From the NCBI GenBank assembly GCA_937146805.1, contig CAKZRR010000017.1:186001-250000 (forward strand): a stretch of DNA of 64,000 nt, in the 5' to 3' direction. A program made the translations under genes and the position numbers. This document shows positions 13,367 to 37,327 of this stretch, one piece after another (the first letter of the stretch is position 1; the number at the start of each line of letters is the position of its first letter). Origin of the DNA: an uncultured Owenweeksia sp. Lineage in GTDB: Bacteria; Bacteroidota; Bacteroidia; Flavobacteriales; Schleiferiaceae. Under the pieces are notes generated by a model. That model was not told the origin of the DNA. It did no database searches and worked only from the letters and a program-made list of their open reading frames with translations.

Positions 13367-14932
13367 TTATTCTTTAACGTCAACATCATCTGCTTCCGTA
13401 TCACTCGAAAGGTCGGTGCTTGGGGCAGTTTCTTTGTCCTCATACAAATCCTTACCTCGTAAATAATCGGGTAATTTTAACCCAGCTTGGTTAAAGATGT
13501 CTTCCAATGGTGGTACGGATTTATACATTCCCGAAAGGAAATTAGCCGTGTTGGTGCCGCCACCATCTTTACCCAAAGAGTCCCAAACGGTCACTTTATC
13601 AATCTTAATATTCTTGATAGCTTCTACTTGTGATTTAATAATTTCTGGAAGTTTTTCAGCCATCAATAACATAAAGGCATCTCTTGGATCGCTGCCCGCA
13701 GCGCTTACTAATTCTCTAAAACCTTCTGCCTGTTTAGAAAGCAGCTCGTAGTTACCACGTGCTTCGGCTTCTAGTTTGGCGTAAATCGCATCCGCTTCCC
13801 CTTTGGCCATTCTACGCAATCTTTCGGCTTCCGCTTCGGCATCAATTTCTACTTTTTGTTTTTGAATACTAGTAGGAATTACAATATCGGCATACTGGCT
13901 GGCTTCATCTCTTTCACCACGTGCTCTTTCAGCAGTTTGTTGCGATTTATAAGCTTCTTCCAGTGCTTGCGCCTCTTTTACTTTTTCAGCGGCTACGGCT
14001 AAGCGAGTGGCTTCGGCTTGTGCTTCACGTCTTCCTGCATCTGAATTAGCAATGGCAATTTTAGCGGTATTTTCACCTTCTACTGCTCGGGCATTTGCAT
14101 CAGAGGTTTCGATACGTTCATTTTTTTGAGCATCGGCTTCTCCAATAGTAGCTTGGGCATTGGCGGCTGCCACTTCAATACGTTCCTTTTGAGTAGCGGC
14201 TGCTTCCCCAATATTGGCGCTCGCATTTGCCGCAGCTACTTCTACTCTTTCTTCTTGGTTGGCATTCGCCTGACCAATCGATCCATCTCTATTTTTTTCG
14301 GCTACACTTTGGCGGGCATCATTCACCGCTTTGGCAGCTGCTTCCTTACCTAAAGCCTCAATATAACCGCTCTCGTCCTTAATGTCAGTAACGTTTACGT
14401 TGATGAGCTTTAGTCCAATTTTTTTCAATTCGGCACCTACGTTAGAAGCCACATTGGCCAAAAATTTATCTCGGTTATTGTTAATTTCTTCAATATCCAT
14501 GGTGGCTACTACTAAGCGCAGCTGTCCAAAAATAATGTCCTTGGCTAAGTCGTGCACCTGCGTTTGATTTAAACCCAACAAACGTTCGGCAGCATTGTTC
14601 ATTACGCCTGGTTCGGTAGAAATACCCACGGTAAAACGAGAAGGAACATCTACTCTAATATTTTGGCGACTTAAGGCATTGGTCAAGTTTACTTCAATGG
14701 AAGTAGGGGTAAGATCTAAGAAGGCATAATCTTGAATAATGGGCCAAACAAAAGCGGCTCCACCATGAATACACCTGGCCGATAGATTGCCTTCTACATT
14801 ACTACCTACTTTTCCGTACACTACCAAAATACGATCTGAAGGGCAACGTTTGTAGCGCTTGATAAGTGAAAAGAAAAGGATGAAAACAAAGGCAAAACCC
14901 ACAACAATGGGGATTAAGAACATAGAACTCAT
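13367..14932 (-). CDS. Flotillin-like SPFH-domain membrane protein
   Basis: Flotillins are inner-membrane scaffold proteins of ordered lipid domains. The 521-residue product has one N-terminal membrane helix (about 5-23), an SPFH/band-7 domain to about 200, and a long Ala/Glu-rich coiled coil to about 400, ending in an acidic tail. Within the coiled coil, residues 219-284 form three tandem 22-residue repeats, each with IG near its start and an ER(I/V)E core. The upstream gene at 14941-15531 encodes an NfeD-like protein ending 8 bp before this start, the usual flotillin/NfeD operon. The layout resembles E. coli YqiK more than the short FloA. Phenotype cannot be predicted. Confidence 0.88.
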   Translation of the reverse strand: MSSMFLIPIVVGFAFVFILFFSLIKRYKRCPSDRILVVYGKVGSNVEGNLSARCIHGGAAFVWPIIQDYAFLDLTPTSIEVNLTNALSRQNIRVDVPSRFTVGISTEPGVMNNAAERLLGLNQTQVHDLAKDIIFGQLRLVVATMDIEEINNNRDKFLANVASNVGAELKKIGLKLINVNVTDIKDESGYIEALGKEAAAKAVNDARQSVAEKNRDGSIGQANANQEERVEVAAANASANIGEAAATQKERIEVAAANAQATIGEADAQKNERIETSDANARAVEGENTAKIAIANSDAGRREAQAEATRLAVAAEKVKEAQALEEAYKSQQTAERARGERDEASQYADIVIPTSIQKQKVEIDAEAEAERLRRMAKGEADAIYAKLEAEARGNYELLSKQAEGFRELVSAAGSDPRDAFMLLMAEKLPEIIKSQVEAIKNIKIDKVTVWDSLGKDGGGTNTANFLSGMYKSVPPLEDIFNQAGLKLPDYLRGKDLYEDKETAPSTDLSSDTEADDVDVKE

Positions 14933-22708: not shown

Positions 22709-24622
22709 ATGAAAAAACTAATGCTATTAACCGGAATTTTACTAATTTTTTCGCTTCAGGCAGTTAAAGGTAGTACGATCACTTGGAAGTCGATAGGTCC
22801 AAATTTATATGAATTCAAAGTATTGCTGTTTGCGGATAGCTCCTCAACGTGGCCAACAAATGTTACCATCGAAGGGCCAAACAGTATTCATTATTCCTTA
22901 GCGGGCTCAAGTATATCTTATATCGGTGATACTTGTGCAGTTTCTGTTTATGGTGTTTATAAGATTAGAGAGTACGTGGGTGTTATTGTACTAAACGGTA
23001 CGCCACCTTATTCGGGTTGGGTTTTTAAATTTTATAATTGTTGCGGATTTACCAATGTAATAAATACTACGGGACAAAATACTAGTTCCTATATTGAGGC
23101 GAGAATGTACCCAGGAGGGCAGAATTTAAACTCGCCTCAGTTTGATAGTGAAGCCGATTTTAGGATGTCAAAGCACAATCGTTTTTTCTTACCACATTCA
23201 AGCATTGGTCAATTAGGCGATTCACTTTACTATTCCTTGGTATCCCCAATGTACCTTCAATCATCTGCCCGTACATTTAGTTCGGGGTTTTCCGCTACAA
23301 GTCCGCTCCCCAATCCGCTTAGTAACCCGTTAAATGGCCCTATTTATTTTGACCGGAGTATCGGTTACATGCAGTTTAATATACATACGGCAACGGCAGG
23401 CGAATATTACTTTGCTACCGAAGTTGAACAATGGCGTAATGGTATATTAACTGCAAAAGTTATGAGAGATTTGCCCGCTAGTTTTCTGGTCAATCCAAAT
23501 CCCGTTGCCAATAGCCAGCCCACTGTGGAGATTGATACGAGTGTATATGATGTGCAAAGGCTTGATGATATTTACACGATGGCTGTGAGGCCAGGTGATA
23601 CGGCTCATTTTGAAATTAATGCAACGGATTTTGATTTAAACGGAAGTAACTTTCAGAATTTGACTTTTAAGGCCAAAGGGCAAGCTTTGGACGTTCATTG
23701 GAATTCAACCAGCTTTTATACCAGTACCGCACATTTACAACCTGTGTCGCCCCAGTTAGGTTTTACAAGCCCAGGTTCTAATAATATAAGTTTTGAGTGG
23801 ATTGTAGCTAATGAGCACGTAGATTTACACCCTGTTGAGTATGTATTTTTCTTTGAAGTAAAAGATGATGCCTCCTGTGCGCTATCAAGTAAAAAAATTG
23901 TAATAGTAAAGATACAGGTAGAGCCGGTGTTGGGCGTAGCGCCAGATACCTTGGCCATATGTCAAGGAGATTCTGTTTTGTTAAAAGGCACCACGCCTAG
24001 CAAAATCTATTTTTGGGAAAATGCTGACGTCAGTTTTACAAGTACCAAAAGATACGTCTATGTAAGTCCTAACCAGTCAGGGTATTTTTTTCTAAAAGAT
24101 GGGGCAAGCCAAAATGTAGTTGATTCGGTGTACATAAATGTAACGGAATTAAGGTCTTTTTCGTTGAATCAAGGCGCTGCAGGTTTATTATATGTGATCG
24201 ATAGTAATGGACTGAGCAATTTTAATTGGTATTTCAATTCAGTGTTAATACAAGGTAATAGTAGTGATACCTTATTGGCTAGCAAAAGAGGAAGCTACTA
24301 TGTAACTGCTCGGTTAGGTAGTTGTTTATTAGTTTCAAAAGATATTACAATATCTCAAATTTTTGGAATTGGAGAATTGGATTTGTCATCAGTTCAGCTG
24401 TATCCAAATCCGGCAAAGAGCCAAGTACTTATTTCAAATTTAGTTTCTGTTCAAAAAGTCTATTTAGTAGATGTTACAGGCCAAGTTCATCAAGAAATTA
24501 GAGCGACAAAAGGCCAAAGCGAAGTATTGGTTTCAAGGCAAAGTTTACCATCGGGTGTTTACTTTTTAAAAATGGAGTTTGATGAGGGAAATACCTTGGT
24601 TAAAAAGGTGGTGTTTGAGTAG
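22709..24622 (+). CDS. T9SS-targeted surface protein, tandem paralogue 1
   Basis: The 637-residue product is secreted, with a signal peptide at about 1-21. The N-terminal domain (SITWKSIGPNLYEFKVLLFAD) fits the adhesin-like family of Bacteroidota in which a (G)GxISWE-type strand is followed by a YRDC-like segment, here altered to FADSS. Beta-sandwich domains follow, and a region near 408-470 has an Ig-like character (LAICQGDSVLLKG). The T9SS type A sorting domain covers about 560-637 (VQLYPNPAKSQVLIS to KKVVFE). The next gene is a paralogue of the same length. The last 219 bp are almost identical to those of that paralogue while upstream parts have diverged, pointing to gene conversion. A role in adhesion is inference. 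Confidence 0.75.
   Translation: MKKLMLLTGILLIFSLQAVKGSTITWKSIGPNLYEFKVLLFADSSSTWPTNVTIEGPNSIHYSLAGSSISYIGDTCAVSVYGVYKIREYVGVIVLNGTPPYSGWVFKFYNCCGFTNVINTTGQNTSSYIEARMYPGGQNLNSPQFDSEADFRMSKHNRFFLPHSSIGQLGDSLYYSLVSPMYLQSSARTFSSGFSATSPLPNPLSNPLNGPIYFDRSIGYMQFNIHTATAGEYYFATEVEQWRNGILTAKVMRDLPASFLVNPNPVANSQPTVEIDTSVYDVQRLDDIYTMAVRPGDTAHFEINATDFDLNGSNFQNLTFKAKGQALDVHWNSTSFYTSTAHLQPVSPQLGFTSPGSNNISFEWIVANEHVDLHPVEYVFFFEVKDDASCALSSKKIVIVKIQVEPVLGVAPDTLAICQGDSVLLKGTTPSKIYFWENADVSFTSTKRYVYVSPNQSGYFFLKDGASQNVVDSVYINVTELRSFSLNQGAAGLLYVIDSNGLSNFNWYFNSVLIQGNSSDTLLASKRGSYYVTARLGSCLLVSKDITISQIFGIGELDLSSVQLYPNPAKSQVLISNLVSVQKVYLVDVTGQVHQEIRATKGQSEVLVSRQSLPSGVYFLKMEFDEGNTLVKKVVFE
24404..24622 (+). repeat. Near-identical T9SS sorting-domain repeat, copy 1
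   Basis: These 219 bp match 26437-26655 with only two substitutions found by eye, up to and including the TAG stop; identity ends right after the stop. Confidence 0.9.
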
Positions 24623-24747: not shown

Positions 24748-26655
24748 ATGAAAAAATTTCTACTGTTATTCGGATTATTAGTAAGTCTTACAATTCAGGC
24801 CGGCCATTTTAGGGGAGGCTCTATTTCTTGGGAGTCCGTGGGGTTGGATAAATACGTGTTTTCAGTGTTGCTTCATGCGGATTGTGGTGGAGCTGGCTTA
24901 CCAGGGACTATTGTTCTGACAGGTCCAAATGGAAATATTAGTACATCGAGTTCTGGAGGAATGTCTTTTAATGATACTTGTGGAACTGTGATTACCTGTG
25001 TATTTAAAACCCGCGAATATAAAAGTGATACTATTACTTTAACCGGCACTCCGCCCCTAACGGGCTGGACATTTGGCTTTAGTTTCTGCTGTAGGAATAC
25101 CTCTTTAAACCTAACAGGGGGAGGTAACTATTACAATGAAGCTACGATGTATGCGGGAGGTTTAAACCGAAACTCCCCAAAGTTCGATCACTTTCCGGAT
25201 TTTAGAATGTCGCCAAAAACAAAGTTTTTTCTGCCTTATTCGGGCAAAGGCCAAACAAGCGATTCGTTGCACTATTCGTTGGCACCAGTTTTAGATGGCC
25301 AAAACAGCCCTATTACCTTTAAAACTAATTTTTCGGTTACTAGCCCATTTCCCAACCCACTTACCGACCCAGTAAATGGACCCGTTTACATACATGGACC
25401 AAGTGGTCATATTCAATTTGATGTAAATGTGGCCACATCTGGCCGTTATGAATTTGCTACCGAAATAGAGCAATGGCAAAATGGTGTTTTGGCAGCTGTG
25501 GTGAAACGAGATATTTACGCCACCTTTTCTGCTCAAACCAATGCCAATAACCAGCCTAGTGTGGCAATTGATACTAGTGCTTATAACTTACAAAGACAGT
25601 TAGATACGTATTCGATGACTGTTTGGCCTGGTGATACGGCTCGTTTTGAAATTAATGCGATAGATTTTGATTTGAATGGAAGCAATCTACAGAGTTTAAC
25701 TTTTACAGCTTCTGGGCAAGCGCTGGGCATACCGTGGAACGGAAATAGTTTATATACGAGCAATGCTCAGTTACAGCCCGTTACACCACAAGTGGGTTTT
25801 GTTAGTCAAGGTACCAATAACATTGGTTTTGAATGGTTAGTTATGCCTGAACATGCTGCTAAAACCCCCGTTATTCATAGTTTTTATTTTAGGGTAAAAG
25901 ATGATGCTTGTGTATTATCTAGCAAAAAAATTATAACTCTAAATATTGAGGTAAAACCTGTTTTAGGCATTGAGCCAGATACAGTGGCTATATGTTTAGG
26001 CGATTCTGTTGTGCTAAGAGGTAATACACGTAGTGAAACCTATTTATGGGAAAATGCGAATGCTAGTTTTAATAGCACCCAGAGGTATCCGCTTGTTATC
26101 CCAAGTCAGTCCGAATATTATTTTCTAAAAGATGGTCTTAGTCAAGATGTAGTTGACTCAGTGTATATATCGGTAACAGAATCCAAATATTTGGAGGTGC
26201 TACAAGATACCGGACAGTTTTTATATGTGCTGGATAGCAATGGAGTGACAAGTTTTAATTGGTACTTCAATTCAGTTTTACTAACAGGTCAAACCAACGA
26301 CACTATAGTGCCTACACAAAAAGGAACTTATTATGTAACTGCACAGATAGGAGCCTGTGAGTTGATTTCTTCTAACCAAATGGTAAATCAAATTTTTACG
26401 GTAAATGAGTTGTCCTTTTCATCGGTTCAGTTGTACCCAAATCCGGCAAAGAGCCAAGTACTTATTACAAATTTAGTTTCCGTTCAAAAAGTCTATTTAG
26501 TAGATGTTACAGGCCAAGTTCATCAAGAAATTAGAGCGACAAAAGGCCAAAGCGAAGTATTGGTTTCAAGGCAAAGTTTACCATCGGGTGTTTACTTTTT
26601 AAAAATGGAGTTTGATGAGGGAAATACCTTGGTTAAAAAGGTGGTGTTTGAGTAG
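24748..26655 (+). CDS. T9SS-targeted surface protein, tandem paralogue 2
   Basis: The 635-residue product is the tandem copy of the preceding gene and lies 125 bp downstream of it on the same strand. The signal peptide is at about 1-18, then GHFRGGSISWESVG and LLHADCGGAG retain the Cys lost in paralogue 1. Conserved blocks continue, such as RVKDDACVLSSKKI and ICLGDSVVLRG, and the C-terminal sorting domain starts at VQLYPNPAKSQ. Cell-surface display through the type IX system is expected. The two paralogues differ widely over most of their length, but share an almost identical 73-residue end. A terminator at 26684-26714 closes the unit. The ligand is unknown. Confidence 0.75.
   Translation: MKKFLLLFGLLVSLTIQAGHFRGGSISWESVGLDKYVFSVLLHADCGGAGLPGTIVLTGPNGNISTSSSGGMSFNDTCGTVITCVFKTREYKSDTITLTGTPPLTGWTFGFSFCCRNTSLNLTGGGNYYNEATMYAGGLNRNSPKFDHFPDFRMSPKTKFFLPYSGKGQTSDSLHYSLAPVLDGQNSPITFKTNFSVTSPFPNPLTDPVNGPVYIHGPSGHIQFDVNVATSGRYEFATEIEQWQNGVLAAVVKRDIYATFSAQTNANNQPSVAIDTSAYNLQRQLDTYSMTVWPGDTARFEINAIDFDLNGSNLQSLTFTASGQALGIPWNGNSLYTSNAQLQPVTPQVGFVSQGTNNIGFEWLVMPEHAAKTPVIHSFYFRVKDDACVLSSKKIITLNIEVKPVLGIEPDTVAICLGDSVVLRGNTRSETYLWENANASFNSTQRYPLVIPSQSEYYFLKDGLSQDVVDSVYISVTESKYLEVLQDTGQFLYVLDSNGVTSFNWYFNSVLLTGQTNDTIVPTQKGTYYVTAQIGACELISSNQMVNQIFTVNELSFSSVQLYPNPAKSQVLITNLVSVQKVYLVDVTGQVHQEIRATKGQSEVLVSRQSLPSGVYFLKMEFDEGNTLVKKVVFE
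26437..26655 (+). repeat. Near-identical T9SS sorting-domain repeat, copy 2
   Basis: This is the second copy of the 219-bp segment at 24404-24622. The differences seen are T to A in ATTTCAAAT/ATTACAAAT and T to C in TTTCTGTTC/TTTCCGTTC. Confidence 0.9.
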
Positions 26656-26740: not shown

Positions 26741-27985
26741 TTATTTTTTCACTAGCACTTCCATCTTAGCTTGATTAATTTTTAAAAAGTAAACCCCTTT
26801 CGATAAGTGATTAAGTCTGATTTTTTGTTTGGTTTGATAAAGATTTTCCTCATGTACTAGTTGCCCAGTAGCGTCATACAATTGTATTATTCCATTTTTC
26901 GAACTAGTATTCGCAATCCAAATAAAATCAGTTGTGGGGTTGGGGTATATAGATATAGTTGTAGCAACTCTTTTTTCAAGTAAACCAATATTACCGCCAT
27001 TTGTGGTTTTATATACGCGGCCATCTAATAAAGCATAACCTACGCTATCGTTGGCAAACGAAATATTGCTAAAAGCATAAGGCGAGGCGTGCCAGTTAAC
27101 ACCATTGGTGCTAGTAGATTGTAAAGGCCTTGCGGCTCCGCCATAAGCAAACTGTCCGTACACATAACCAATACCATTTCTCAGAAAAAAGATTTCCGTA
27201 AAAAAAGTAGTGTCATTGTTTAACTGTTGCTGAACCCAGTTGTTGCCACCATCTGTTGTGCTTAAAATCAGCCCATTATTACCACAGGCGTAACCGTTTT
27301 GAGCATCGGTAAAGTAAAAGTTATTAATGTGTTTTACTTTACCAAAGCCGTTACCATTTGTTGTGTCTTGATATACTTTGGTCCAGCTAGTACCTTGGTT
27401 TACCGATTTGAAGATACGGTAATAACTAACCCCAGAAATGTTGAGCTCATAAGTACTCAAAAACACAGTATCCTCACTTTGCATATACACGGCATTTACT
27501 TGATCTTGCAATGGGTGGCTTATTTGTGTTAGGTTTTTTCCGCCATTGGTAGTTTTTAGTAATAAATCGTATTCGCCTACAATAAAACCCACGCTGTCGT
27601 TAGCAAAATGCAATTGCCTAAAGTTGTAGCCTGTAAACTGGTTGGAAGTAAGCGAGTCCCAAGTTTGGCCTGCATCAGAGGTAGAGGCCAAAAAATTAAG
27701 ATGGTTACCAAAGGCAGTGCCGCCACACACATAACCCTTATTAGGGGAAGGAAACTGAAGGTCATTAAACCATTCGCCAAAATTGAAAATGGTGGCGGTG
27801 CTATCAAAAGTTTGTCCGCCATCAAAGCTGCGGTATATTTTACCGTTTCCACCGGTTATTACAACCGTATCAGGTGATACCGCCCAGCATTTATGTAATT
27901 GAAGATTTTTTAATGGTAGAGCCGTCCATTGAGCCGAAAGACCAAAGGCAAGGCATAGCGAAAAGCAGGTAGCAAGCTTTTTCAT
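26741..27985 (-). CDS. T9SS-targeted beta-propeller (BNR/YCF48-like) protein
   Basis: The 414-residue secreted protein has a signal peptide at about 1-18, followed by repeated propeller blades of the BNR/YCF48 type. Asp-box-like motifs include YRSFDGGQTFDS, TSDAGQTWDS, KTTNGGKNL, KSVNQGTSWTK and STTDGGNNWVQ. A T9SS type A sorting domain covers about 340-414 (ISIYPNPTTDFIWI to KMEVLVKK). Such proteins often act as exported scaffolds or binding proteins, but no enzymatic residues are identifiable. It lies 52 bp downstream of the diheme peroxidase gene on the same strand and may be part of the MbnP/MauG operon, or be separately transcribed. Confidence 0.8.
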   Translation of the reverse strand: MKKLATCFSLCLAFGLSAQWTALPLKNLQLHKCWAVSPDTVVITGGNGKIYRSFDGGQTFDSTATIFNFGEWFNDLQFPSPNKGYVCGGTAFGNHLNFLASTSDAGQTWDSLTSNQFTGYNFRQLHFANDSVGFIVGEYDLLLKTTNGGKNLTQISHPLQDQVNAVYMQSEDTVFLSTYELNISGVSYYRIFKSVNQGTSWTKVYQDTTNGNGFGKVKHINNFYFTDAQNGYACGNNGLILSTTDGGNNWVQQQLNNDTTFFTEIFFLRNGIGYVYGQFAYGGAARPLQSTSTNGVNWHASPYAFSNISFANDSVGYALLDGRVYKTTNGGNIGLLEKRVATTISIYPNPTTDFIWIANTSSKNGIIQLYDATGQLVHEENLYQTKQKIRLNHLSKGVYFLKINQAKMEVLVKK

Positions 27986-28037: not shown

Positions 28038-29066
28038 CTACTGGTTTTTATGGGTAGCTATAAAATGGTGATCGGAGAGGCTCAAAAGAAAGTTTACTAG
28101 ATCGCTTTTTTCACTTTCGTTGAGGTTTAGAGGAGTAATTAGAGCGCTTTTATTGGGATGATTTTCACCTCCGCTATTGTAATGGTTTACCACTTCAAGC
28201 AGCGTGTTGAATTGCCCGTTGTGCATATAGGGAGTGGTAAATTCAACGTTTCGGAGGGAGGGTACTTTAAAGAGCGCTTGATCTGAACTAAGTCCCGTAA
28301 GCCTAGCGCGTCCTAAGTCTAAGTAAGCTGTATCCAAACCATTATTTTGAAAGCTGTAATTGCTAAAATTAAACCCTGCATGGCAGCTGCTGCAATTGGT
28401 TTTAGCGCTATTAAAAAGTTGCCATCCTCTTTTTTCACTTTCGCTTAGAGCTTGCTCCTTACCCTGATAAAAATATTTATCCCAAGTACTTTGTCCGCTA
28501 ATAAGCGAACGCTGATAGGTACCTAAGGCGCGGGTAATAGTAAATGGAGTTGGTGGGCTTTGGTACGCTTGTACTGAAAGTTTTTGGTAATCTTTTCGAT
28601 TTTCGAGTAACGCTATAATAGCCAACATATCATGGGCAAACTCGTTGTGCTCTTGTATCGGCACTAATACTTGCATTTCCAGTGTTTTAATGCTGCCTTC
28701 GCGCAATAGATAAGGGTGGTAGCCCACGTTGGCTAAAGAGGGTGCATTGCGAACTCCAGGCCGGTTAAAAACCCCTGGACTAAAAGCTTGGTCATCGGCA
28801 AAAGCCAAATGAGGTTTGTGGCAACTGCCGCAACTCAAAGTGCTATCTATAGAGAGAACGGGGTCAAAAAAGAGTTTTTTACCAAAGCGCCAACGAGCTT
28901 CGCTAAAGGCATTATCATTGGGAAATGGCATTGCTGGAAAACCTGTGGGGATTTGAACTAAACTACTTTTAGTGTCAAATTTTTCGGAATTTGATTTCTC
29001 GCAAGCTACTGCCAACATCATAATTCCGCTGCTTAGCAGTACCAAAAATTTTCCAGCAATACGCAT
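28038..29066 (-). CDS. Diheme cytochrome c peroxidase/MauG-family lipoprotein (MbnH-like), copy A
   Basis: The 342-residue product belongs to the diheme CcpA/MauG family. A lipobox LAVAC places a lipidated Cys at residue 22. Two heme c sites are visible, CGSCH at 79-83 and CSSCH at 225-229. The segment TPYMHNGQFNTLLEVVNHYNSGG ends with Tyr296, cited here as VVNHYNSGG, where classical peroxidases have a Met ligand; Tyr is the pattern of MauG and MbnH, which oxidise protein tryptophan or form cofactors. It lies 8 bp downstream of a second copy and belongs to the operon with the MbnP-like protein, its probable substrate. Peroxidase activity remains an alternative. Confidence 0.85.
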   Translation of the reverse strand: MRIAGKFLVLLSSGIMMLAVACEKSNSEKFDTKSSLVQIPTGFPAMPFPNDNAFSEARWRFGKKLFFDPVLSIDSTLSCGSCHKPHLAFADDQAFSPGVFNRPGVRNAPSLANVGYHPYLLREGSIKTLEMQVLVPIQEHNEFAHDMLAIIALLENRKDYQKLSVQAYQSPPTPFTITRALGTYQRSLISGQSTWDKYFYQGKEQALSESEKRGWQLFNSAKTNCSSCHAGFNFSNYSFQNNGLDTAYLDLGRARLTGLSSDQALFKVPSLRNVEFTTPYMHNGQFNTLLEVVNHYNSGGENHPNKSALITPLNLNESEKSDLVNFLLSLSDHHFIATHKNQ

Positions 29067-29074
29067 TGGTAATT

Positions 29075-30166
29075 TTAATTTGGGTCGCTGTAGTTTGGAT
29101 TAGTCAATAAATCTTCATCCGTAAGCGTGCGCAAAAAAGCCACTAAGTCTGCTTTATCTTGTGCATCTAACTGTAAACCTCCAGAGGCGCGTGTGTATTC
29201 CAAGGCAGGATCAACGGTGGTTGAATTTTGAATGCCACTGTTGTAATGATCTACTACCTCCTCTAAGGTGGTAAATCTACCATCGTGCATATAAGGCGGT
29301 GTTACGGCTATGTTTCGGAGCGAGGTAACTTTAAATTTACCTAAATCCTTGGCCAAAAAAGTGGCTTTTGCTCTTCCGCTATCGGCTCTTGCGGCATCAC
29401 TATCTAAGCCATTATTCATATACAGGTCGTTTTCAAAAGTTTTACCTGCATGGCAGTGGGCGCAATCGGCACCCGACATGTCAGGAAAGCCTGGGTTAAA
29501 TTCTGTAAAGAATAGGGCTCGTCCACGCTCTTCTGATTCGCTGAGCGTTGTTTGTCCTCTTAAAAATCGATCGTATTTACTATCTACCGATAAAATAGAG
29601 TTCATAAACTGCTCCAATGCAAGTGAAATCTTTTCGCTGGTAATTTCAGAACTCCCAAAAGTTCTAAAAAACTGGTTGCGATATGCTTCACTTCCTTCTA
29701 ATTTCGCCACTACGTTTTCCAAAGTCTCATCCATTTCCAAGGCATCTTGGATTGGTAAAATGGATTGATCTCGTAAAAGATGTGCACGTCCATCCCAAAA
29801 AAACTCATTATCGTGCCAAGCCATATTAAAAATACCCATAGCCTGCCTTTTTCCGGGTAGGCCTTTTACGCCTAACGAAAATTTAAGAGTATCGCTAAAG
29901 GCATGTTGTTGGCGGTGGCAGCTGGCGCAAGATTGTGAACCATCTCTTGAAAGCATTTTTTCATAAAACAAGGTACGTCCTAATTTTACGCCTTGCACCG
30001 TTAAGGGGTTATCAGCAGCTATGTTGGGCTTTTCAAAATCTTTATACGCTAAAGTATGAGCGGTAGTATCGTGTACAAGCTGGTTGTCGTCTTTATCGTC
30101 CTTACAAGCTTGGGTGCTAATTATCAGTGCGCCTATGGCACATACTAGTATTTGCTTATTTTTCAT
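29075..30166 (-). CDS. Diheme cytochrome c peroxidase/MauG-family lipoprotein (MbnH-like), copy B
   Basis: The 363-residue product is a diverged paralogue of the downstream gene. The lipobox is STQAC (Cys21), and the mature protein starts CKDDKDDNQ. A charged stretch right after the lipid-bearing Cys resembles the lipoprotein export signal that sends Bacteroidota lipoproteins to the cell surface. Heme c sites are CASCH at 80-84 and CAHCH at 235-239. PPYMHDGRFTTLEEVVDHY places Tyr308 at the MauG-type axial position. The gene begins 10 bp after the MbnP-like gene and ends 8 bp before copy A. Together they fit an MbnP-MbnH system with two oxidases, an inference from family and context. Confidence 0.87.
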   Translation of the reverse strand: MKNKQILVCAIGALIISTQACKDDKDDNQLVHDTTAHTLAYKDFEKPNIAADNPLTVQGVKLGRTLFYEKMLSRDGSQSCASCHRQQHAFSDTLKFSLGVKGLPGKRQAMGIFNMAWHDNEFFWDGRAHLLRDQSILPIQDALEMDETLENVVAKLEGSEAYRNQFFRTFGSSEITSEKISLALEQFMNSILSVDSKYDRFLRGQTTLSESEERGRALFFTEFNPGFPDMSGADCAHCHAGKTFENDLYMNNGLDSDAARADSGRAKATFLAKDLGKFKVTSLRNIAVTPPYMHDGRFTTLEEVVDHYNSGIQNSTTVDPALEYTRASGGLQLDAQDKADLVAFLRTLTDEDLLTNPNYSDPN

Positions 30167-30176
30167 GAGATGGGTT

Positions 30177-31127
30177 TTAAAGACTAATCAGCTTTTTGCT
30201 AGTTAACCTATTCCCATTTTTAAGCAAGGCTACTTGGTACACTCCTGTTTGCAGGTTGGGTAACAAAATCTGAGTTTGGTTACTCAGTTGTGTTTGCCAA
30301 ACAATTTTTCCACTTACATCAAAAATAACTAACTCCGCACCCGCCTGTGTTTCAACTAAACGCAGGGTAGTTTGCCCTTGGCTAGGGTTAGGACTAAGGC
30401 TAAAATTGAGTACGCTATTTTCATGTAATCCTACTTTACCACTAATATCCGTATATACATGGTTTTGAAAGTTTTGCATTATCATAGGAGCCTGTTGGTC
30501 TTCGCCATGGTAGTTTAAGTTACCCGAAACGGTAATGCCTCGTAAAGCTTTTTCGCAATCGGCCGCAAGGCTAATTACTAAATCACCGTTTATCATTTCT
30601 CCAGTAGTTGGAATAATGGCATGACCGTAGTTTTTATCACCGAGAGCATGTAATTGCCAAATTTGATCTCCACCGGCACCGCCTAAACCTTCAAAGGCAA
30701 CAAAGCGATATCCTGATGCCCATCCCCAATGCATAGAGGGGCCTTGGAACCATAGTGGATGCCCTTTAGGTTGAGTTGAGGGGTCTAAGTGATTTGACGC
30801 ATAATCTACACCAATGCCCAATTCAATTCCTTCTAGGTTGGTAATATTATACGAACCCAAGGTTTCTGATAAAGGCTCATTGGCTTTTACCATTAAATAT
30901 TTATCAGTTACGGCTGTTTTTTGGCCGCCATCGTGCACCAGCGAAATTTTCGAAATATAATATTCAGCTCGCGTAAAGCTAAAGCTGTTACCTAAATTAT
31001 TACTGCAAGGATGTTCGTAGCTAAAATCGCTGTAGGCCAATTTATGATGAATGTCTAGAATAACATTAACTTGACCATAGCTTAAGGCAGCCAGTAAGAA
31101 GGCACCAATAAGTGTAAATTTTTTCAT
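30177..31127 (-). CDS. MbnP-like copper-binding-type protein with T9SS sorting domain
   Basis: The 316-residue product resembles the MbnP family, whose Methylosinus member binds copper through a kynurenine formed from Trp by its diheme partner MbnH. A signal peptide covers 1-18. The MbnP-like domain (about 20-220) contains RAEYYISKISLVHDGG, then FQGPSMHWGWASGYRFVAFEG, cited as PSMHWGWASGYRFV; it is rich in candidate Trp and His ligands. Two Cys (HPCSNN and AADCEKAL) may form a disulfide. A T9SS type A sorting domain occupies about 240-316 (LSPNPSQGQTT). So the protein is probably displayed on the cell surface. Two MauG/MbnH-type genes follow 10 bp downstream. Confidence 0.78.
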   Translation of the reverse strand: MKKFTLIGAFLLAALSYGQVNVILDIHHKLAYSDFSYEHPCSNNLGNSFSFTRAEYYISKISLVHDGGQKTAVTDKYLMVKANEPLSETLGSYNITNLEGIELGIGVDYASNHLDPSTQPKGHPLWFQGPSMHWGWASGYRFVAFEGLGGAGGDQIWQLHALGDKNYGHAIIPTTGEMINGDLVISLAADCEKALRGITVSGNLNYHGEDQQAPMIMQNFQNHVYTDISGKVGLHENSVLNFSLSPNPSQGQTTLRLVETQAGAELVIFDVSGKIVWQTQLSNQTQILLPNLQTGVYQVALLKNGNRLTSKKLISL

Positions 31128-31146
31128 GATAGTAAATTTTTAAATT

Positions 31147-31211
31147 ATTTGAAATAAATGAGATTTCCTCTGTATGCTAGAGACGGATGATGGAAACTTC
31201 TTATTTCAAAT
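31147..31211. repeat. 11-bp inverted repeat flanking the MbnP-like operon leader
   Basis: ATTTGAAATAA at 31147-31157 and its reverse complement TTATTTCAAAT at 31201-31211 are 43 bp apart. They bracket the region just upstream of the MbnP-like gene and overlap the stop of the HYC_CC_PP gene. In AT-rich DNA this could be chance. Confidence 0.3.
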
Positions 31212-31646
31212 TAAAAACACCTGATATTTTACTAGTAAATTGTTTTTGACCCGAGGGGGTATAAGTGGAGGTAAGGCTGAACATCTTGTAATATAAGTAG
31301 GTTGCGGAAAATTGATTTTTTGGAGCAGCGGCATGGACAGAGCTACTACATTAGAGGTAGTTAATACCACGTCCTGATTAGGATGCTCAGCATCAAAGTT
31401 CAATCCTTCTACAACGATTTTTTTGTTGTGGCAGCAATCATCAATTAAGCCTAATTTTTTGGCTAGCCCATGGTGGCAGGCAGCACCCGAATGATTTGAC
31501 TGGTTGTGTTTGCAGGGTGTAGCTTGGTTAAAAAGTCCAATGCTCTTTAACGTATCGCCACACCAGTGGGTATCAATAGTAAAGCTTAAGGAGCTCAAAA
31601 ACACCTGAAAAGCAAGTAGTACTGATAAAAGATTCCTGCAAAACAT
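31206..31646 (-). CDS. HYC_CC_PP family Cys/His-rich exported protein
   Basis: This 146-residue protein fits the HYC_CC_PP pattern of Bacteroidota: HWC at residues 27-29, CC at 71-72 followed by His, and PP at 126-127 and 130-131. An N-terminal hydrophobic segment (about 5-22) predicts export. Further possible metal ligands are C45, H47 and the C57-H-H group. Family members are small proteins of unknown biochemistry that I associate with metal-related loci. It lies 78 bp upstream of the MbnP-like gene on the same strand. It could deliver or buffer copper for that system, which is inference. Confidence 0.72.
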   Translation of the reverse strand: MFCRNLLSVLLAFQVFLSSLSFTIDTHWCGDTLKSIGLFNQATPCKHNQSNHSGAACHHGLAKKLGLIDDCCHNKKIVVEGLNFDAEHPNQDVVLTTSNVVALSMPLLQKINFPQPTYITRCSALPPLIPPRVKNNLLVKYQVFLI

Positions 31647-35198: not shown

Positions 35199-35242
35199 TA
35201 GCATTAAAAAAGGCTCCCAATTGGGAGCCTTTTTTAATGCTA
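35199..35242. terminator. Bidirectional terminator, 44-bp perfect palindrome
   Basis: A 44-bp perfect palindrome centred on AATT has G+C-rich arms (GGCTCCC) flanked by A6 and T6, so it can act on both strands. It lies between the convergent PKD/T9SS gene and dsbD and contains the dsbD stop codon. There is no unpaired loop in the DNA; a 4-nt loop would form in RNA. Confidence 0.88.
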
Positions 35243-37327
35243 GTTTTTGTCTTCAAAAAGTTGAATACCTTCTTTAAGCCAATTAACATAAAAGGGAATA
35301 TCCGGATCGTAAGCCGTAGAACCATTTAGGGGTTTCATGCTTTTGTGATCTAATAATATATACTGCGGCTGGCTATTATTTTGGTAGTGCTTAATTTGAA
35401 ATTCACTCCATTTGTTTCCAATCGTTTTTATTTTTTTACCCGTAACCTCCGAAACATATTGCTCCTTTGCTGGTAGTTCTTCTCGGTCATCAACATATAA
35501 CGAAACAAGCACTACATCATTTTGCAACATGCTTAAAACACCTGGGTCGCTCCAAACTTGTTCTTCCATTTTACGGCAGTTAACACAACCCCAACCGGTA
35601 AAGTCAATTAAAATAGGTTTACCTACTTTTTTGGCATAGGCCTTTCCCGCTTCAAAATCATGAAAGCAGTTGAGGTGTAATGGGCAGGTTTCGGGGTGCG
35701 ACCCTTCGGGTACATCAGAACTGTGTGCATCAGAACCTCCACTTGTTGCGCTACCCCCAAAGCCATTGGGCGATTCGCTGTAAAAGGAGGGAGGAGGAAA
35801 GCCGCTAATTAATTTTAAAGGTGCTCCCCACATACCTGGAATTAAATAGATTACAAAAAAGAGTGATAAAATAGCCATGAATAAACGGGGCACCGATAGC
35901 TTATCCATAGGGCTATCATGCGGCATTTTAAATTTACCCAAAAGGTATAGGGTAAGTAGTGCGAAAATAGCAATCCAAATAGCGATAAACCATTCACGTT
36001 GTAGTAAACCTGCTTGCCAAACTAAATCAGCCGTGCTTAAAAACTTAAAGGCAAAGGCTAGTTCAATAAACCCTAAAACCACTTTTACCGAGTTTAACCA
36101 GCCACCACTTTTAGGCATGGAGTTTAGCCATCCCGGGAAAGCGGCAAAAAGAGCAAAGGGTAAGGCCAAAGCCAATGAAAAGCCAAACATACCTACCAAG
36201 GGACCTTGAACACCTCCGGTGGATGCTTCAAAGAGCAAGGTGCCAATAATAGGCCCAGTACAACTAAAGGAAACCAAGGCTAAGGTAAAAGCCATAAAAA
36301 AGATACCCACTAAGCCACCTTTGTCCGAAGCTTGATCGGTTTTATTAACCCATGAAGAAGGTAAAGTAATTTCGAAAGCACCAAAAAAGCTAATGGCAAA
36401 AACAACCAATAGCACAAAAAAGGCAATATTTACCCAAGGGTTGGTAGAAAATTGATTTAGCGCATCAGAACCGAAAATGGCCGTTACGCCATACCCGATT
36501 AATGTGTAGAAGGCAATAATAGAAATGCCGTAAATAATGGCATTAGAAATACCCTTAGCACGTGTTTTACTTTGCTTGGTAAAAAAGCTTACCGTAAGCG
36601 GGATCATTGGGAAAACACAAGGGGTTAATAGGGCTGCAAAGCCGCCCAAAAAGCCGAATAAAAATATACCTAATAGCGATTTGTCTTTACTCTCAGGTAC
36701 AACTGGCTCGGTGTTTTCTTCTACATCATCATTATCTTCGCTACTTTCCGATTGGCTGTTCTCGTAGGTAGTAGTGTCTTCGCCATTGTAGGCGTAGTCA
36801 ATGTGTTCTTTTTCCCCATCTTCTTCCGTTTGGCTGCTTCCTTCTATTTGCCCTTCGGCAGATGAGTTGGCAACAGCCTTTATTTTAAATTCTAAATCAA
36901 GATACTCCGGTGTTAAGCAGGTTTCTTCATTACAGGTTTGGTAAATAAACTCTACCTCCGCTGTAAAATCTTTGTTGTTGAGTAGTTTTATTTTTTGCGA
37001 AAAAGTGACTTTCTTTTCGTGATACTTTAAAATTTCCTCAAAATTGGGGTCGTATTCTTCGTGTGGCGTGGGTTCTTCAACACCACCTATCAGTTTAAAG
37101 TTTGGGTTTTCGGCTACGTTTAGCTCGGTAAAAATCACAAAAGAGCCTTCCTTTTTTTCTACAGAGTATAAGTGCCAACCTTCATCCATGGTGGCAGTAA
37201 CCTCCAATAGCACCTCCGTGTCGTTAAGGCGAGTGGCCTTATGGCTCACTTTTACTGGTTCTAATATTTGAGCATTTAGGCTGCCAATGCCTATAAGTAG
37301 TATAAGTAGGTATCGAAAAATTCTCAT
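35240..37327 (-). CDS. dsbD: Thiol:disulfide interchange protein DsbD
   Basis: DsbD carries electrons from cytoplasmic thioredoxin across the inner membrane to periplasmic thiol oxidoreductases, including those of cytochrome c maturation. The 695-residue product has the three expected parts. The N-terminal alpha domain carries C132 and C137 in YQTCNEETCLTPE. The transmembrane beta domain (about 215-505) has eight or nine helices, with Cys in LLTPCVFPMIPLTV and SFSCTGPIIGTLL. The C-terminal thioredoxin domain has DFTGWGCVNCRKME. It overlaps tilS by 4 bp (ATGA), so it is translated from the pabB-tilS transcript. Its reductant could serve the heme proteins at 28038-30166. Confidence 0.93.
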   Translation of the reverse strand: MRIFRYLLILLIGIGSLNAQILEPVKVSHKATRLNDTEVLLEVTATMDEGWHLYSVEKKEGSFVIFTELNVAENPNFKLIGGVEEPTPHEEYDPNFEEILKYHEKKVTFSQKIKLLNNKDFTAEVEFIYQTCNEETCLTPEYLDLEFKIKAVANSSAEGQIEGSSQTEEDGEKEHIDYAYNGEDTTTYENSQSESSEDNDDVEENTEPVVPESKDKSLLGIFLFGFLGGFAALLTPCVFPMIPLTVSFFTKQSKTRAKGISNAIIYGISIIAFYTLIGYGVTAIFGSDALNQFSTNPWVNIAFFVLLVVFAISFFGAFEITLPSSWVNKTDQASDKGGLVGIFFMAFTLALVSFSCTGPIIGTLLFEASTGGVQGPLVGMFGFSLALALPFALFAAFPGWLNSMPKSGGWLNSVKVVLGFIELAFAFKFLSTADLVWQAGLLQREWFIAIWIAIFALLTLYLLGKFKMPHDSPMDKLSVPRLFMAILSLFFVIYLIPGMWGAPLKLISGFPPPSFYSESPNGFGGSATSGGSDAHSSDVPEGSHPETCPLHLNCFHDFEAGKAYAKKVGKPILIDFTGWGCVNCRKMEEQVWSDPGVLSMLQNDVVLVSLYVDDREELPAKEQYVSEVTGKKIKTIGNKWSEFQIKHYQNNSQPQYILLDHKSMKPLNGSTAYDPDIPFYVNWLKEGIQLFEDKN

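Follow-up and report, generated by a model that had tools for sequence, protein, structure and literature searches.

A candidate copper-handling MbnP/MbnH-type operon of Bacteroidia with a type IX secretion tail, two diheme lineages and a putative leader gene

Introduction

Kynurenine copper sites have so far been studied in methanotrophs. In the 2021 work behind the structure 7l6g, the first Trp in M. trichosporium MbnP was reportedly converted to kynurenine, and a His and a Met are said to bind Cu(I). The present study concerns a related locus in a 64,000-nucleotide stretch of DNA (the window) from an uncultured Owenweeksia sp. of the Bacteroidota. The locus consists of a gene for an MbnP protein with a type IX secretion system (T9SS) tail, genes for two diheme proteins (lineages A and B), and a gene for a HYC_CC_PP protein. 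We consider it probable that these genes form a copper-handling operon of the MbnP/MbnH type adapted to the Bacteroidota surface, with two dihemes acting on MbnP and HYC_CC_PP as a leader.

The MbnP/MbnH pair of M. trichosporium OB3b (7l6g, 6e1c) shares with the window set the MbnP fold, the MxWxW motif, the His and an adjacent MbnH with a Tyr ligand. The window set differs from that pair in its T9SS tail, in the motif form MHWGW, in having no four-Cys pattern and in its two diheme lineages, one of them without the inter-heme Trp; furthermore, no methanobactin genes were seen adjacent to it. MopE/SACCP of Methylococcus capsulatus and CorA/CorB of Methylomicrobium album are also surface copper proteins with kynurenine and a diheme neighbour (PMC3912023), but they use another export route, have one diheme and are copper-repressed, and neither matched the window MbnP in sequence or fold searches.

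Results and discussion

A T9SS-tailed MbnP in a four-gene operon

The four genes lie head to tail, with gaps of 8 bp (B/A), 10 bp (A/MbnP) and 78 bp (MbnP/HYC_CC_PP).

31206-31646, minus strand: HYC_CC_PP gene, 146 aa (NCBIfam NF047658, 57.8 bits, cut-off 28)
30177-31127, minus strand: gene for MbnP with T9SS tail, 316 aa (Pfam, NCBIfam, AlphaFold and Foldseek)
29075-30166, minus strand: diheme gene of lineage A, lipoprotein with CKDDKDD start (Pfam, NCBIfam, tree and alignment)
28038-29066, minus strand: diheme gene of lineage B, lipoprotein (Pfam, NCBIfam, tree and alignment)

A preliminary description of this DNA, made from the letters alone, had given the same four genes, gaps, motifs and families, and all of them agreed with the open reading frame (ORF) coordinates and the Pfam and NCBIfam results. 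The searches with the four proteins returned the names MbnP, Por_Secre_tail, CCP_MauG (twice) and HYC_CC_PP, the last from the protein that had been placed ahead of MbnP. The same genome contains three MbnP loci and four CCP_MauG loci.

The product of 30177-31127 is built of a signal peptide, an MbnP domain (about residues 20-232) and a T9SS type A tail (about 242-316). Pfam MbnP (PF20243) matched residues 21-200 at 84.2 bits (cut-off 27), which removes the possibility that the 316-aa protein has no MbnP domain. Por_Secre_tail matched residues 246-314 at 40.1 bits (cut-off 27), and T9SS tail matches overall were 40-44 bits. The genome also encodes the T9SS translocon protein SprA (2587 bits); both features expected of a T9SS cargo, the type A C-terminal domain and SprA, were thus found. 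An AlphaFold model of the protein had a predicted local distance difference test score (pLDDT) of 93.9, and when the PDB was searched blind with this model in Foldseek, the six chains of 7l6g took ranks 1-6 (E values 3e-8 to 2e-7). A second aligner matched 203 residues, between 18 and 232, to 7l6g with a Z score of 17.0 and a root-mean-square deviation of 3.0; the PDB rows that followed scored far lower and covered the T9SS tail only. Sequence profiles of these T9SS-MbnPs did not reach 7l6g, which the fold search did. The Pfam scores and the fold match together confirm the MbnP-like domain with a T9SS sorting tail of the first description.

30720-30734, minus strand: MHWGW motif, M132-W136, candidate Met ligand and WxW, in 27/27 orthologs
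30648-30650, minus strand: H160 of the LHALG segment, candidate copper ligand, invariant

MHWGW corresponds to MAWNW in 7l6g, and LHALG to MVHVG. Both MHWGW (132-136) and H160 were invariant in all 27 orthologs recovered by a motif-free search; the conservation of MHWGW in the 80 named loci described below is partly by construction, as PSMHWGW served as a search pattern. M132 and H160 are presumably the ligands, by analogy with 7l6g. Two further residues, H133 and H207, were invariant in the T9SS-MbnPs, but the invariant positions of the family's short MbnPs do not include them, so the metal site may differ.

Two MbnP-domain paralogs (L011:6426-7181 and L064:6297-7079) have neither WxW nor an adjacent diheme, and in the same survey WxW MbnPs do have an adjacent diheme. 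These paralogs fit a link between WxW and diheme, though they represent a single lineage.

Two diheme lineages of the MbnH type

Each diheme protein contains two CXXCH motifs and matched Pfam CCP_MauG (146 and 178 bits, cut-off 25.6). The best NCBIfam model for both was MbnH TIGR04039 (257 bits for B and 243 for A); the MauG model TIGR03791 scored lower (184 and 177 bits), far under its cut-off of 443.85. The following residues were located by alignment with MauG.

29795-29797, minus strand: W124, inter-heme Trp of diheme A
29243-29245, minus strand: Y308, distal Tyr of diheme A
28701-28703, minus strand: R122, replacing the inter-heme Trp in diheme B
28179-28181, minus strand: Y296, distal Tyr of diheme B

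Y308 (in EVVDHYNSG) and Y296 (in EVVNHYNSG) fall in the column that holds Met in CcpA and Tyr in MbnH and MauG, and every A and B sequence in the alignment has Tyr, not Met, at this axial position. In the tree, lineage A (79 sequences, support 0.987) and lineage B (87 sequences, support 0.982) were each monophyletic and stood on the MbnH side, apart from MauG and CcpA, but were not sisters. Classical CcpA identity was rejected on both grounds, and the preliminary assignment to MauG/MbnH-type dihemes with Tyr where CcpA has Met holds. MbnH is also the nearest solved relative of both proteins. A and B thus combine proximity to MbnH, a His-Tyr heme and a gene beside MbnP.

Tandem duplication of the two genes was considered and rejected: the node joining A and B had a support of 0.145, and each lineage grouped with other MbnH sequences. 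The "duplicated oxidases" of the preliminary description are instead deep, separate lineages that differ at the inter-heme Trp.

The comparison with MauG uses the established MauG residue numbers (Trp93, Gln103, Pro107, Glu113, Thr275, Pro277 and Tyr294), applied with fixed offsets. Tyr294 (Y308/Y296 in A/B), Gln103 (Q134/Q132), Pro107 (P138/P136) and Glu113 (E144/E142) are kept in the alignment, as are the Ca ligands Asn, Thr275 and Pro277 (N114, T289 and P291 in A; N113, T277 and P279 in B). MauG, which acts in tryptophan tryptophylquinone synthesis, therefore resembles both dihemes in the His-Tyr heme, the distal Gln/Pro/Glu and the Ca ligands, but it has another substrate, both proteins lie far under its model cut-off, and B lacks the equivalent of Trp93. 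That inter-heme position is Trp in 79/79 sequences of lineage A and in 0/87 of lineage B, 76 of which have Arg.

Some single-partner MbnH proteins of this family also lack the inter-heme Trp. We observed MbnH-type dihemes of this kind, with Met or Ala at the position, beside WSW MbnPs at seven loci (L059, L060, L062, L063, L065, L067 and L068), and we are therefore unsure of the value of this Trp as a defining MbnH trait. BthA of Burkholderia resembles diheme B in its Tyr ligand and in having no inter-heme Trp, and it still forms bis-Fe(IV) (PMC6405878); it differs in having Ser rather than Arg at the Trp position, and a pairing with MbnP is not described for it. Given BthA and the Trp-less single-partner MbnH proteins, diheme B need not be inactive.

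These comparisons bear on two other views of the dihemes. They could be peroxidases that remove H2O2 at the surface or in the periplasm and leave MbnP unmodified, as would suit their membership of the peroxidase superfamily and the loss in lineage B of the Trp used in MauG chemistry. We regard this as unlikely, because the genes stand in a tight operon with a WxW MbnP in almost all loci, both proteins have Tyr instead of Met with MbnH as nearest solved relative, and a Trp-less diheme such as BthA retains the bis-Fe(IV) state. A stronger alternative is that A alone modifies MbnP and B is a helper, whether electron acceptor, scaffold or degenerate copy. The strict division of the inter-heme Trp between the lineages and the fuller MbnH residue set of A speak for it; B, however, retains all the other catalytic residues that were checked, T9SS-MbnP loci with B alone exist (L044 and L055), and single-partner Trp-less MbnH proteins serve WSW MbnPs. 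We hold this A-only view to be possible but lean against it, and prefer the reading in which both dihemes act on MbnP. A and B form a natural enzyme pair, one member having the inter-heme Trp and the other lacking it, with one presumed substrate, and offer a clean test of MbnH chemistry.

The sequences of both dihemes are those of lipoproteins. A K-(D/E)2 start at positions +2/+3 was present in 22/70 relatives of A and 3/74 relatives of B; such a start was demonstrated to be a surface export signal in Capnocytophaga (PMC5080379). This is a faint hint of an outward-facing A and an inward-facing B. The CKDDKDD start had earlier been assigned to copy B and read as a surface signal; it belongs to A, the product of 29075-30166, for which such a signal is plausible, but it is not a general trait and in B it is nearly absent.

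Distribution of the module

Scanning 84,980 species genomes with an alignment query yielded at least 381 confirmed species-level loci, and the best 80 were read; a genome-contig scan with a single-protein query gave no matches. All 80 loci encode a T9SS-tailed MbnP, and 69/80 have both dihemes, in the order A-B or B-A, several of the remainder being cut by contig ends. Carriers include Flavobacteriales, Saprospiraceae, Taibaiella, Lewinella and Aureispira, with Lewinella cohaerens (L124) and Acidiluteibacter ferrifornacis (L080) among the cultured species, and the close subfamily occurred in 9/198 genomes sampled across the phylum, including that of the window. From the scan and the phylum sample, the T9SS-MbnP with two dihemes is a standard module with a wide but patchy distribution across Bacteroidia. 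What had been taken for an unusual arrangement is its normal layout, and the gene set is widespread but little-studied: the T9SS-tailed form of MbnP is present in hundreds of Bacteroidia species.

The two dihemes can also be separated. One genome (G018) has two split T9SS-MbnP copies, one beside A only (L043) and the other beside B only (L044). Two genomes, both incomplete, have A without B (G016) or B without A (G059).

HYC_CC_PP as a candidate leader gene

The HYC_CC_PP protein has an N-terminal hydrophobic export signal, HWC at residues 27-29, CC at 71-72, PP 15 residues before the stop, and the end YQVFLI. An unbiased scan of 31 family genomes gave 39 matches, of which 20 were read. Each checked copy was directly followed on the same strand by a T9SS-MbnP, a CusA of about 1270 aa or a small secreted CopZ/MerP-like protein (at L177 the downstream gene was recovered on reading). 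In a fresh class-wide set, 27/29 loci had a same-strand follower, mostly metal genes with a few unclear; by eye these were CusA, CopZ/MerP-like proteins, T9SS-MbnP, TonB and a heavy-metal-binding domain. The position directly before a CusA-type pump of about 1270 aa (L036:10599-11036, L180, L181, L182 and L185-L192) is a second, equally regular leader context. Across the class, HYC_CC_PP was present in 66/119 genomes sampled.

CC lay 71.4±3.1 residues from the stop (n=71), a distance that was 70.5±1.5 among the fresh loci, whereas the distance from HxC to CC varied (41±8 residues). Conservation was nearly absent in the stretch from CC to PP (0.82 bits per column) and reached 1.87 bits in the last 20 residues. 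AlphaFold predicted a folded HxC/CC part (pLDDT about 90) and an unstructured 67-residue tail (residues 80-146). A disordered tail of fixed length with a conserved motif at the stop is what would be expected of a nascent chain reaching from ribosome to translocon, and judging from the sequences and the model it would be hard to explain for a free protein. HYC_CC_PP stands first ahead of metal genes of several unrelated kinds, and is probably not a partner of MbnP but a candidate metal-sensing, cis-acting leader ORF.

31200-31211, minus strand: 5' helix arm ATTTGAAATAAG, which includes the HYC_CC_PP stop TGA at 31206-31208 (RNA fold z -2.65)
31147-31158, minus strand: 3' helix arm TTTATTTCAAAT, 19 nt before the MbnP start codon (RNA fold z -2.65)

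These two segments can pair between the HYC_CC_PP stop and the MbnP start. An Rfam search of the region matched no family. Stop/start pairing after HYC_CC_PP genes amounted to 11.3 expected pairs, compared with 3.3 in 149 other gene pairs from these loci (p 4e-11) and 4.0 in shuffles; the window locus, with 20.2, was among the highest of 46. When HYC_CC_PP stop regions and next-gene start regions were exchanged among 74 loci, the native combinations had -10.1 kcal/mol and the swapped ones -6.8 (z -11.9; z -3.0 for control pairs). Since native pairs were far better than swapped ones, the two arms change together. Recurrent TTGATTTAG ends that pair with common AAATCATG starts could mimic this result, and the swap test rejected them as the whole explanation.

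The exported CutF protein of R. capsulatus belongs to DUF2946; its export is delayed when copper binds, and a stem-loop that covers the next start is opened by the ribosome so that the downstream gene is translated (PMC9973294). CruR of B. pertussis has the opposite sign and acts through Rho (PMC9426467), and operons headed by CruR homologs include some with MbnPH-like genes. HYC_CC_PP resembles these DUF2946 leaders in being exported, in its Cys metal motif and C-terminal Pro motif and in its place first before metal genes, and it resembles CutF in the stem-loop at the downstream start. It differs in having no DUF2946 match (none among the Pfam matches of 58 members), in its HxC and CC motifs, in a PP about 15 residues before the stop, in a stop region that is itself a helix arm, and in its occurrence in Bacteroidota. 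The traits of such leaders, namely first place before varied metal genes, fixed spacing from Cys to the end and structure at the next start, were all found. In design HYC_CC_PP corresponds to the nascent-chain copper sensors of the CutF/CruR class, and by this analogy it would stall likewise.

Many of the CutF-like proteins reported in the CutF paper are from Bacteroidota (PMC9973294), and HYC_CC_PP may already be among them; our literature search found no paper that names HYC_CC_PP. A 2025 survey reported that copper-linked RAPP/RGPP leaders are missing from Bacteroidota (PMC12992588), which fits the different end motif of HYC_CC_PP; this family could fill that gap. With a leader role, this family, so far no more than a motif name, would acquire a function that can be tested. 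Small ORFs with PP near their ends were observed directly upstream of MbnP in Deinococcus (L149:2514-2795), Ideonella (L150:2318-2683, annotated DUF2946) and Paracoccus (L151:2941-3330), and are possible CutF/CruR-like leaders in other phyla.

HYC_CC_PP could instead be an ordinary small secreted metal-binding chaperone, with the RNA helix incidental or a matter of simple translational coupling. Its conserved His and Cys, its predicted folded HxC/CC part and its export signal would suit such a protein. The downstream partners are unrelated, however, the predicted unstructured tail has a constant length and a conserved motif at the stop, and the stop/start pairing is locus-specific, so that we find the chaperone doubtful. 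The metal-ligand-rich protein that the preliminary description counted as a member of the system is, from its contexts, spacing and stop/start pairing, more likely a leader.

Copper setting and proposed mechanism

Beyond the module, conserved neighbours comprised CusA/CzcA-type RND pumps (11 loci), CopA ATPases (5), CopZ/MerP-like proteins (7), AraC regulators (6) and TonB receptors that weakly match a copper receptor (4). Family genomes carry about 1 CusA per Mb, and by estimate about 1 would be expected by chance in the flanks of about 0.7 Mb. Outside Bacteroidota, MbnP/MbnH genes adjoin CopC, CopD, PCuAC and SCO genes. The CusA, CopA and CopZ-like neighbours point to copper, as the preliminary description had proposed, but the capture that it named is one of two directions. 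Sequestration under copper excess fits at least as well, because leaders of this type also head genes for CusA efflux pumps and MerP/CopZ-like proteins. Capture under starvation would parallel CorA and MopE, which are Cu(I) proteins of the cell surface, contain kynurenine, have a diheme partner and are copper-repressed (PMC3912023), and T9SS display outside the cell fits scavenging. With the leader class also heading pump and CopZ/MerP-like genes, and with CusA or CopA adjoining some MbnP loci, we put capture at somewhat under an even chance.

For the operon that we propose, the analyses above establish the protein domains and fold, the key residues and their conservation, the phylogeny, the copper neighbourhood, and the position, spacing and helix statistics of the leader; that kynurenine is formed, that copper is bound, that the proteins lie at the surface and that the ribosome stalls is what we infer, together with the direction of control. 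The MbnP domain would be exported, folded and attached to the surface via its T9SS tail. Diheme A, a lipoprotein with the full MbnH/MauG residue set, would use peroxide to convert W134 of MHWGW to kynurenine, which would complete a Cu site with M132 and H160. Diheme B, with Arg in place of the electron-hopping Trp, would be a second peroxidase on MbnP with different electron-transfer behaviour. The exported HxC/CC mini-domain of HYC_CC_PP would sense metal while still tethered to the ribosome by the tail of constant length, and a ribosome resident at the end of the gene would open the stop/start helix and set MbnP expression, as in R. capsulatus CutF.

Several results weigh against this proposal. 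The MbnP protein matched the four-Cys family TIGR04052 at 37.1 bits, below the equivalog cut-off of 140, and the four-Cys pattern is absent from its MbnP domain, which has only C41 and C191, the latter not conserved. Both dihemes missed the TIGR04039 equivalog cut-off of 362.85, and their surface location is suggested by a weak N-terminal signal. No HYC_CC_PP gene was seen at about half of the T9SS-MbnP loci, and about 60% of leaders, rather than all of them, have a strong helix. As CutF and CruR have opposite signs, the sign of regulation is not readable from sequence.

A bolder version would have the Trp-relay and Arg-type enzymes make two distinct oxidative modifications of MbnP at the surface, yielding a copper site different from the methanotroph one, under a Bacteroidota-specific nascent-chain sensor with its stop codon within an RNA switch, of a leader class common to CusA and CopZ/MerP-like genes. 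We offer this version tentatively and think it unlikely as a whole.

Other genes in the window

A flotillin-like protein is encoded at 13367-14932 (168.7 bits, equivalog cut-off 700). A DsbD-like thiol:disulfide protein, recognized by eye at 35240-37327, lies 4 kb from the operon and has a possible tie to cytochrome c or copper work. A Ycf48/BNR-repeat protein with a T9SS tail (26741-27985) is encoded on the same strand as the operon, 52 bp downstream of diheme B; it is not a conserved member of the MbnP-diheme module. Two tandem plus-strand genes (22709-24622 and 24748-26655) encode T9SS-tailed proteins of 637 and 635 aa that are similar over their full length and nearly identical in their last 85 residues, which looks like recent duplication or conversion.

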